This document shows positions 15,935-18,736 of a stretch of 64,000 bases of DNA, piece by piece. Source of the DNA: Emcibacter nanhaiensis. Lineage in GTDB: Bacteria > Pseudomonadota > Alphaproteobacteria > Sphingomonadales > Emcibacteraceae. A model generated the notes under the pieces. That model had not been told where the DNA came from. It worked only from the letters and a program-made list of their open reading frames with translations, and did not search any database. The stretch lies in assembly GCF_006385175.1 (NCBI RefSeq), contig NZ_VFIY01000005.1, positions 255,501 through 319,500 on the forward strand, given 5' to 3'. The position numbers and the translations under genes are program-made. Numbering within the stretch: position 1 is the stretch's first letter; every line of letters begins with the position of its first letter.

Positions 15935-16717
15935 ATGGCTGAATTCAAACTTCCCAAAAACTCCCGCTATACCAAGGGTAAAACCTGGAAAGCCGAAGCC
16001 GGCGCCACCAACATCAAGCGCTTCAACATCTATCGCTGGAACGAGGATGACGGGGAAAATCCGCGCATCGACACCTATGAGGTGGATATCGACAAATGCG
16101 GTCCGATGGTGCTGGACGCCCTGATCAAGATCAAGAACGAGATTGATCCGACCCTGACTTTCCGCCGCTCCTGCCGCGAGGGCGTGTGCGGCTCCTGCGC
16201 CATGAACATCGGCGGTATGAACACGCTGGCCTGTACCAAGGATATTGCGGACTTCAAGGGTGATATCAATATCTACCCGCTGCCGCATATGGATGTGGTC
16301 AAGGATCTGGTACCGGACCTGACCAACTTCTATGCCCAGTATGCCTCCATCAAGCCGTGGATGCAGACCCAGACCCCGGCCCCGTCCGGCAAGGAACGTC
16401 TGCAGAGCCGCGACGACCGCGCCAAGCTGGATGGTCTGTATGAATGTATCCTGTGCGCCAGTTGCTCCACCAGCTGCCCGAGCTACTGGTGGAACTCGGA
16501 CCGCTACCTCGGTCCGGCCGTGCTGCTGCAGGCCTACCGCTGGCTGGTGGACAGCCGTGATGAAAATACCGGCGAGCGTCTTGATGCGCTGGAAGACCCC
16601 TTCCGCCTCTATCGCTGCCACACCATCATGAACTGTGCCAACACCTGCCCGAAAGGCCTCAACCCGGCCAAGGCCATCGCCGAAATCAAGAAGATGATGG
16701 TCGAGCGCCAGGGTTAA
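15935..16717 (+). CDS. sdhB: Succinate dehydrogenase iron-sulfur subunit
   Basis: Electron-transfer subunit with 2Fe-2S, 4Fe-4S and 3Fe-4S clusters, 260 residues. The 2Fe-2S ligands are in [15 protein letters not shown], with a further Cys in LACTKD; the C-terminal ferredoxin-type ligands are in [16 protein letters not shown] and [11 protein letters not shown]. Last gene of the sdh operon; followed by a hairpin terminator. Confidence 0.98.
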
Positions 16718-16750: not shown

Positions 16751-16780
16751 AAAAGCCGGGACAATGCCCGGCTTTTCAAT
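16751..16780. terminator. Terminator after sdhB, possibly bidirectional
   Basis: Stem AAAAGCCGGG / CCCGGCTTTT with a six-base loop (16751-16776), T-rich on both sides. It also lies just past the stop of the minus-strand small gene at 16805. Confidence 0.8.
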
Positions 16781-16804: not shown

Positions 16805-17026
16805 TCAGTCGATGAATTCCTTGAGCAGCATGATATCGCCGATGATAAAACCATGCCGGGGGGGATGATGTTTTTCGACGATGCGCAGGGCGTCTTCCTC
16901 GGATTCCGCTTCCACTTCCAGATACCGCAGATCACCCCACGCTTTGTCATAGTTGGGGTGCTTCTTGCCTTCAGCATAGGCTTGCCGCACGGCTTCGTTA
17001 TAGATGGCAACTTCATATCGGTTCAC
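16805..17026 (-). CDS. Small uncharacterised protein, paralogue of the gene at 17183
   Basis: A 73-residue soluble protein with no signal peptide or membrane segment, and no family I recognise. It aligns without gaps over 62 residues to the product of the neighbouring minus-strand gene at 17183-17398. Shared features are YNE-V-R near the start, W-x-D in the middle, E-x-x-A then A-x-x-I, and an HP-x(3)-GF-x(2)-GD C-terminal motif; I count 20 identities. The preservation of the same spacing argues that both are real proteins. The start is GTG at 17026, with AGAGG a few bases upstream. Confidence 0.7.
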   Translation of the reverse strand: MNRYEVAIYNEAVRQAYAEGKKHPNYDKAWGDLRYLEVEAESEEDALRIVEKHHPPRHGFIIGDIMLLKEFID

Positions 17027-17182
17027 GGGATCGGCCTCTTATCGGTCTCAATAAACCTATTGTACAGCGAATAGTAAAAACCTGGTTAACAGCAACCTGA
17101 TTGTCACTGATTTACAGCCAATATATGGAATATACAACTATTTATGTTGTTCGGAGCCGGATCTTTCAGGTCTTGGCCGGCG

Positions 17183-17398
17183 TCAGGCCACGGATTCTGC
17201 AGCGTCGCCGAGGACGAAGCCCATTTTTTCCGGATGCTTGCGGCGGCAGATTTCCATGGCTTCGCCGGCGGTATGGGCGCGAATTTCGATCAGGTGCATA
17301 TCGGCCCAGCTGTCTTCCAGGGTATTGTGGGAGCGCCCGGCCCGGACGATTTCACGGACTTCCTCATTGTAGACAGGGATTTCAAATATTTTCTTCAT
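17183..17398 (-). CDS. Small uncharacterised protein, paralogue of the gene at 16805
   Basis: A 71-residue soluble protein starting at ATG 17398 with GGAAGAA upstream. Same pattern as its neighbour: FEIPVYNEEVRE at the N-terminus, SWADMHLIEIRAH in the middle, and KHPEKMGFVLGD near the end. The predicted alternation of strand, helix, strand, helix would make a small alpha/beta fold. It lies 156 bases upstream of its paralogue on the same strand, so the pair may be co-transcribed from the AT-rich region before zapE. Function unknown. Confidence 0.7.
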   Translation of the reverse strand: MKKIFEIPVYNEEVREIVRAGRSHNTLEDSWADMHLIEIRAHTAGEAMEICRRKHPEKMGFVLGDAAESVA

Positions 17399-17536: not shown

Positions 17537-18736
17537 ATGACCGACGCTTCCCGCCATTCCGCTCCCTCCTCCGGCCCGCTGGCCCGCTATTACCGGCGGC
17601 GCGCCGCCGGCGAATTGCGGGAGGATCCGGTCCAGGAGCAGGTGATGGTCCGGCTGCAAAAACTGCACGAGGCGCTCAAGGGCTATGAAGAGCAGTTTGC
17701 GCCGTCAGCGAGGAACAATGGCAGGCTGTTCTCCCGCTTGCTCAGCCGCGGCAAAAAGCCGGACTTCCCGACCGGCTTTTATATATATGGCGATGTGGGC
17801 CGCGGGAAATCCATGATCATGGACCTGTTCTTCGAAGAAGCCCCCGTGAACGCCAAACGCCGGGTGCATTTCCATGCCTTCATGCTGGAGATCCATGCCG
17901 CCATCCATGAATGGCGCTATATGCCGGCCGCGGACCGGATTGCCAGATGGGGCACCGACAAGGATGACCCGATCCCGCCGCTGGCGAAAAAGGTGGCGCG
18001 GGAAAGCCGCCTGTTGTGCTTTGACGAATTCCAGGTGACCGATGTTACCGACGCCATGATTCTGGGCCGGCTGTTCGGGGAACTGATCAGGCTCGGGGTG
18101 GTGATCGTCCTGACCAGCAACCGGGTGCCGGATGATCTCTATATCGGCGGCCTGAACCGGGAACTGTTCCTGCCCACCATCGCCATGCTCAAGGACAAGA
18201 TGAATGTCATCGCCCTCGACGGTCCCACCGATTACCGCCTGGAGCGCATGAAAGGCATGCCCACCTATTACCATCCGCTGGGCGAGGAGGCGACCCAGGC
18301 CCTGTCCGAAGCCTTCTGGCGCCTGACTGACCATGATGTGGCGGACCGCTCCAAGGTCGGGCCGGAAGTCCTGGACGTAAAGGGCCGCAAGCTGACGATC
18401 CCGGTGGCGGACCGGGGGGTGGCCGTGGTGTCGTTCAAGAAAATGTGCGGCGCGGCGCTGGGCGCGGCAGACTATCTGCAGATTGCCTGGCACTATCATA
18501 CGGTAATTATGGTCGGCATTCCCAAACTTGGGCCCCATAATCGCGACGAAGCCAAGCGGTTTATCACCTTCATCGATGCGCTCTATGAAAATAATGTAAA
18601 GTTCCTCTGTTGCGCCGAGGTGCCGCCGGAGGAGCTGTATGAGGAAGGGCATGGCCATTTCGAGTTCCAGCGCACCGTTTCCCGGCTGATGGAAATGCAG
18701 AGTCAGGAATATCTGGCTAAGGGGCATGCGGTTTAA
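17537..18736 (+). CDS. zapE: Cell division protein ZapE (AFG1-like ATPase)
   Basis: A 399-residue P-loop ATPase of the ZapE/AFG1 family, associated in bacteria with Z-ring constriction and in mitochondria with respiratory-complex protein quality control. Walker A is GDVGRGKS at 85-92; Walker B is LLCFDEFQVTDVTDA; the sensor-like segment VVIVLTSNRVPDDLY follows. The gene sits between sdh and mdh, a common alphaproteobacterial arrangement. There is no clear Shine-Dalgarno sequence before the ATG, which follows an AT-rich stretch. Confidence 0.93.
   Translation: MTDASRHSAPSSGPLARYYRRRAAGELREDPVQEQVMVRLQKLHEALKGYEEQFAPSARNNGRLFSRLLSRGKKPDFPTGFYIYGDVGRGKSMIMDLFFEEAPVNAKRRVHFHAFMLEIHAAIHEWRYMPAADRIARWGTDKDDPIPPLAKKVARESRLLCFDEFQVTDVTDAMILGRLFGELIRLGVVIVLTSNRVPDDLYIGGLNRELFLPTIAMLKDKMNVIALDGPTDYRLERMKGMPTYYHPLGEEATQALSEAFWRLTDHDVADRSKVGPEVLDVKGRKLTIPVADRGVAVVSFKKMCGAALGAADYLQIAWHYHTVIMVGIPKLGPHNRDEAKRFITFIDALYENNVKFLCCAEVPPEELYEEGHGHFEFQRTVSRLMEMQSQEYLAKGHAV

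Follow-up and report, generated by a model that had tools for sequence, protein, structure and literature searches.

A family of small single-domain proteins in Alphaproteobacteria, represented by two paralogous genes between sdhB and zapE in Emcibacter nanhaiensis

Introduction

The described proteins that come closest in predicted shape to the gene products reported here are epsilon (RpoY, also YkzG), T7 Gp2 and eL20. Epsilon is a Firmicutes protein that occupies a cavity lying between the RNA polymerase subunits alpha, beta and beta', at a site far from where its structural relative Gp2 binds, and its loss causes no growth defect (PMC7722741). With epsilon and Gp2 bound so far apart, shape does not fix the binding site within this fold class.

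Here we analyse a stretch of 64,000 nucleotides from Emcibacter nanhaiensis (the window), in which two small minus-strand genes, ORF A and ORF B, lie between sdhB and zapE. Like RpoY (PF07288; 4njc), the family formed by A, B and their homologues consists of stand-alone genes whose products have about 70 residues and a predicted order of strands and helices that resembles its own. It differs from RpoY in being alphaproteobacterial and multi-copy rather than a Firmicutes protein, in having no sequence match to it, and in a conserved loop, carrying H and W, that is eight residues longer. The predicted fold of ORF A also resembles that of T7 Gp2 (PF16857; 4lk0), with which the last 32 columns of the family align by profile (A-x-[ST]-x-[DE]-E-A ... 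GF); no such alignment is obtained for the first half, which carries the YN-x2-VR and H...W motifs, and the family genes are chromosomal and vertically inherited, not phage-borne. In predicted fold the family also resembles eL20 (L18a), but the eukaryotic protein carries a pair of such domains within 170 residues, and among the sequence matches listed for the A/B family there is none to eL20. Lastly, the NCBIfam entry NF033153 (Icd-like phage division inhibitor) is weakly matched by 37 of 143 family members (best E 2.1e-4), but neither by A nor by B at E up to 10.

Results and discussion

Two paralogous genes under purifying selection

ORF A (16805-17026, minus strand, 73 aa, GTG start) holds one complete copy of the domain, with residues E5, N10, V13, R14, H23, W30, P55, G59 and F60, and ORF B (17183-17398, minus strand, 71 aa, ATG start) holds the second, which is the copy that most often adjoins zapE in relatives. 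Between them lie 156 bases (17027-17182, minus strand) that contain the upstream region of A. The GTG start of ORF A is supported by the ATG found at the same place in its orthologue at locus L035. The flanking genes, given here from the ORF list as context only, are the convergent sdhB (15935-16717, plus strand) and the divergent zapE (17537-18736, plus strand). A hairpin followed by a T-run (16751-16776, plus strand; a consensus match only) sits where sdhB and ORF A converge, between their 3' ends, and is a possible terminator, the hairpin/T-run scan having found 2 such elements against 1.3 expected in shuffles. Scanning upstream of the genes for sigma-70 promoters gave no match; the motif TTAACC is present 63 bases upstream of ORF A.

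An earlier, sequence-only reading of the window had described these frames as paralogues that align without gaps and are both translated, being conserved as proteins far more than as DNA. Our analysis bears this out. Both frames are present exactly as described, and BLASTP aligns their products with 20/61 identities, 37/61 positives and 0 gaps (E=2e-17), while the DNA of the aligned stretch is 47% identical. Each of the motifs that had been named (YNE-V-R, W-x-D and HP-x3-GF-x2-GD) occurs in both ORFs, as YNEAVR/YNEEVR, WGD/WAD and HPPRHGFIIGD/HPEKMGFVLGD. A DNA pattern of the shared residues, derived from the A and B sequences themselves, matches the window exactly 2 times against 0.00 expected over 100 shuffles, so the likeness is not due to chance, and the same residues stand at fixed spacing in the copies of relatives.

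In G002, the nearest relative to have the two genes, the orthologues of A and B adjoin zapE (L035). Compared with these, ORF B shows a dN of 0.096 and a dS of 1.271 (dN/dS ~0.08) and ORF A a dN of 0.204 and a dS of 1.242 (dN/dS ~0.16), with the same picture in 4 further close pairs of members. A homologue of ORF B was found in 38 of 60 relatives, often as 2 or 3 tandem copies adjoining zapE. With homologues in close relatives, and dN/dS far below rather than near one, the earlier view of the pair stands: A and B are real genes under strong purifying selection. The E. nanhaiensis genome encodes a third paralogue on another contig (G000:C4:427963-428160; L005 7919-8215), a 99-residue open frame whose C-terminal tail is longer and which lies well away from both sdh and zapE.

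An undescribed family within Alphaproteobacteria

Iterated profile searching of the fetched loci brought the family to 61 members. Seven positions were invariant in a 27-row alignment (E6, N11, V14, H24, W31, P56 and G60 in B numbering), and the invariant residues were mostly polar or aromatic. Both A and B match F/Y-E-x3-[YFH]-N-x2-V-[R]-x8-H-x6-W-x24-P-x3-G-[FY] exactly and at fixed spacing, as do most loci fetched independently by protein search. In two of the alignments (A2 and A3), some rows came from loci found by a pattern demanding E, N, V, H, W, P and G-F/Y, which makes these residues invariant there by construction; they are invariant also in alignment A1, for which protein search supplied the rows, whereas more distant profile matches lose some of them.

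Of 289 genomes sampled across the class, the 27-row profile matched 25; in a phylum-wide sample of 398 it matched 6, each of which belongs to the window's class. A DNA pattern of the invariant residues recovered at least 120 stretches in named genomes; among the matches listed, all were Alphaproteobacteria or unplaced Pseudomonadota, mostly Rhodospirillales, with Emcibacterales, Kordiimonadales and Sneathiellales also represented. Copy number in the relatives searched ranged from 1 to 3 per genome. Within the window's own order, those genomes of the large family f6 that were searched with the profile yielded nothing significant, and a single protein as query gave one marginal match (E 0.008). 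The domain is thereby shown to be widespread in Emcibacterales, Kordiimonadales, Rhodospirillales and Sneathiellales and, in the searches made here, turned up in Alphaproteobacteria only.

The sequence-only reading had recognised no family, in agreement with the library searches. By hmmscan, A and B gave no match over cut-off in Pfam, NCBIfam, PHROGs or PADLOC, and the 143 members gave only scattered weak matches in Pfam and PHROGs. Searched against the PDB by sequence, the 27-row profile returned an unrelated chain as its best match (E 0.31), and our literature search found no paper on the family. A and B each consist of a single domain, and the undescribed family to which they belong has members of about 70 to 90 residues. 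Its domain is present in at least 100 alphaproteobacterial genomes yet is named by no family library searched here. Carrier genera such as Thalassospira and Terasakiella include isolated strains held in collections, which makes the family amenable to experiment.

A tree of 119 members over 69 columns was, as expected, poorly resolved. It places B with the first zapE-side copy of relatives (15 rows, SH-aLRT 95) and A with its G002 orthologue (SH-aLRT 98), and separates a third-paralogue group with a KPVGRRF-like tail (SH-aLRT 97), which the third copy of the window's genome joins (SH-aLRT 88).

Two distinct subfamilies (MLQ-x-P-x-NG...KENQSH and KYEVAIYN...DDWAD) are often found on one strand at a distance of a few hundred bases from each other; loci with both occur in named Rhodospirillales (for example L138, L141, L148, L149, L192 and L222).

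Predicted fold and a possible docking role

The AlphaFold2 model of ORF A, built from 143 relatives, has a mean pLDDT of 94 and shows a strand (2-10), a helix (11-18), a short helix (28-31), a strand (34-40), a helix (43-53) and a final strand (60-68); that of ORF B, built from 74 relatives, shows the same elements at a mean pLDDT of 89. The fold of both is thus predicted with confidence to be beta-alpha-beta-alpha-beta, with three strands and two helices. Foldseek against the PDB gave no significant match for either model (best E 0.13). For A, YkzG/RpoY ranked first (4njc_B; prob 1.00, rmsd 1.7, TMt 0.76, E=0.19), a non-significant match, with eL20 and phycobilisome linkers close behind and T7 Gp2 at rank 6 (4lk0_M, E 0.34); for B, eL20 was the best match and Gp2 appeared again. 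Superposition of A by VIA-align 2 gave Z 7.0 with eL20 (rmsd 3.0, 61 residues) and Z 6.7 with Gp2 (rmsd 1.9, 51 residues), both in the range below 8 that may reflect a common arrangement. By sequence, the RpoY profile had no match in A or B by hmmscan, with an hhalign probability of 0.8%, and none in the E. nanhaiensis genome, the same search finding B. subtilis and L. lactis. The alignment of the family profile with Gp2 covered 32 columns (P=0.00098) at an hhalign probability of only 22%, and RNA_pol_inhib (PF16857) matched 2 of the 143 members (best E 0.0041) but appeared for neither A nor B with E allowed up to 10.

We tentatively propose that the A/B domain is a small docking, or adaptor, module with RNA polymerase as its leading target, a reading that we regard as possible rather than probable. 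The domain would work by docking and not by catalysis, binding a larger assembly through a conserved surface. Read from secondary structure and not from coordinates, this surface would combine strand 1 (E5, Y9 and N10), the start of helix 1 (V13 and R14) and the loop with H23, W30, A31 and D32. RNA polymerase heads the list of candidates because epsilon and Gp2, the two best matches among small proteins, both bind it; and since the closest shapes (epsilon, Gp2 and eL20) are all held on large nucleic-acid machines, the most likely specific role would be that of a bacterial RNA-polymerase-associated small protein. That members across the family have no operon partner in common is what one would expect of an accessory protein encoded on its own. 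The repeated use of the domain, both by paralogues and in membrane-anchored proteins (described below), is in keeping with an exchangeable docking module, whose versions would each be adapted to their own partner or cellular location.

A fixed polymerase subunit fits the data poorly, as 1 to 3 copies per genome, presence in 25 of the 289 genomes of the class and the membrane versions all argue against it. Also weighing against the docking reading itself are the lack of a significant Foldseek match, the Z scores under 8, the absent sequence match to the RpoY profile and the further resemblance of the predicted fold to phycobilisome linkers, PurS and PII-like proteins. The fuller picture, namely an RNA-polymerase-associated family specific to Alphaproteobacteria, related in fold to epsilon and Gp2, with CtrA-controlled paralogues and with versions tethered through a coiled coil that would hold the polymerase, or a different large machine, at the membrane, is very improbable as a whole. 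Were docking on RNA polymerase true, the family would provide an epsilon-like accessory protein outside Firmicutes; otherwise, it would still be a family of small proteins that is conserved and has an invariant site.

The prominence of eL20 among the structural matches, as the best VIA-align match of A and the best Foldseek match of B, raises the alternative of an eL20-like mode of action, with RNA or the large ribosomal subunit as what the domain binds. We consider this doubtful, for the structural scores are non-significant, the version in A and in several relatives is acidic, the conserved residues form no basic patch, and many genomes of the class are without the domain.

CtrA-like boxes and conserved polar residues

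The motif TTAA-N7-TTAA, which we take to be the consensus of the alphaproteobacterial cell-cycle regulator CtrA, is found 70-106 bases upstream of 7 of the 10 third-paralogue genes (L043, L048, L050, L051, L054, L065 and L068), against a mean of 0.5 and a maximum of 2 in shuffles. Across family f1, the exact box occurs in 9 of 51 upstream regions compared to 4 of 118 controls (p=0.003); TTAACC half-sites are not enriched upstream (10 of 51 versus 19 of 118 controls). These counts suggest that the third-paralogue group may be under cell-cycle control by a CtrA-like box. They also bear on a second alternative, in which zapE-linked copies would act with ZapE on the Z-ring whilst other copies are switched by CtrA. 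Such a role would suit the position of zapE as divergent neighbour in 25 of the 41 loci from relatives, as well as the weak resemblance of some members to the Icd-like division inhibitor. It is nonetheless unlikely, given that the three copies of the window's genome have no exact box upstream, that members outside Emcibacteraceae rarely carry one, that zapE is no neighbour outside two families and that A and B are without an NCBIfam match; moreover, a divergent position does not in itself amount to functional coupling.

Alternatively, the conserved polar residues might serve to bind a small ligand, which would make the domain a small-molecule sensor or an enzyme subunit whose E/N/R/H/W site holds a metabolite or a metal. 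The mostly polar or aromatic character of the invariant residues is consistent with this, as is the presence of PII-like and PurS folds among the Foldseek matches of A, but these come with a prob of 0.2-0.6 and high rmsd, and we hold a ligand-binding role to be quite unlikely.

Gene neighbourhood

From its place within a TCA-cycle and respiratory block, the pair had also been taken in the sequence-only reading to hint at a link to metabolism or membrane complexes, and this part does not hold. The order sdhB-family-zapE, proposed there as a context to be sought in homologues, is retained in just two families of the order and gives way elsewhere to different neighbours. Among the 41 loci from relatives, 12, all of them in families f1 and f4, have sdhB at a distance of up to 2.5 kb, and 109 of the 120 named-genome loci, among the matches listed, have no sdhA, sdhB, sdhD, zapE, mdh or sucC nearby. 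Instead of forming operons with their neighbours, family genes mostly lie on the other strand, and no widely recurring same-strand partner was seen across the loci compared. Frequent neighbours in Rhodospirillales, again mostly on the opposite strand, are acyl-CoA synthetase-like, DsbA-like and polygalactosaminidase-like genes. Since sdhB adjoins the family in few lineages and no partner recurs, its adjacency is local, inherited gene order and not evidence of a metabolic role; with genes that stand alone and neighbours that vary elsewhere, a metabolic link is unsupported.

That A and B serve as accessory or assembly factors of succinate dehydrogenase, or of another respiratory complex, is for its part very improbable. 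In the window sdhB does adjoin the pair, but A and B are convergent with it and not co-transcribed, and the genome has SdhE elsewhere: the sole match to the Sdh5/SdhE profile (PF03937) is at G000:C4:30864-31082, on another contig, and neither A nor B matches that profile. The link to succinate dehydrogenase was rejected on gene order. An origin as a phage remnant or as part of a toxin-antitoxin system is scarcely credible, since the weak matches to small phage families in the beta-alpha-beta half stand against the lack of any family match in viral contigs, of any short member in viral contigs, phage records or plasmids (the last searched with ORF B) and of any PADLOC match, and against inheritance in place beside zapE over many genera.

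In genus g5 (L036-L041 and L070-L073), 2 or 3 tandem copies lie between zapE and genes that we named by eye from sequence as YkuD-, PspC- and PspA-like, which there take the place of sdh; these copies may conceivably be linked to envelope stress.

Membrane-anchored coiled-coil versions

In several genomes the domain also forms the C-terminus of longer proteins, which combine a coiled coil with a single membrane segment predicted at the N-terminus (L087, L103 and L231-L238), features judged by eye together with coiled-coil-type Pfam matches. Those Pfam matches were rejected as a guide to family identity, as they reflect the coiled coil only. Proteins with this architecture of membrane segment, coiled coil and C-terminal domain are encoded at L231 7823-9079, L232 6995-8138, L233 7351-8475, L234 2681-3864, L235 7611-8117, L236 7272-7811, L237 7451-8685 and L238 5067-6175. 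Often they are the products of a pair of adjacent genes, whose copies of the domain are then partly degenerate.

Coiled-coil versions were observed in Azospirillum-like and other Rhodospirillales. An adjacent gene pair of the membrane-anchored type lies on a large plasmid of Indioceanicola profundi (Azospirillaceae) at NZ_CP030128.1 211249-212399 (L239 3914-5064); its first gene was matched by tblastn, and both genes are annotated as hypothetical protein.
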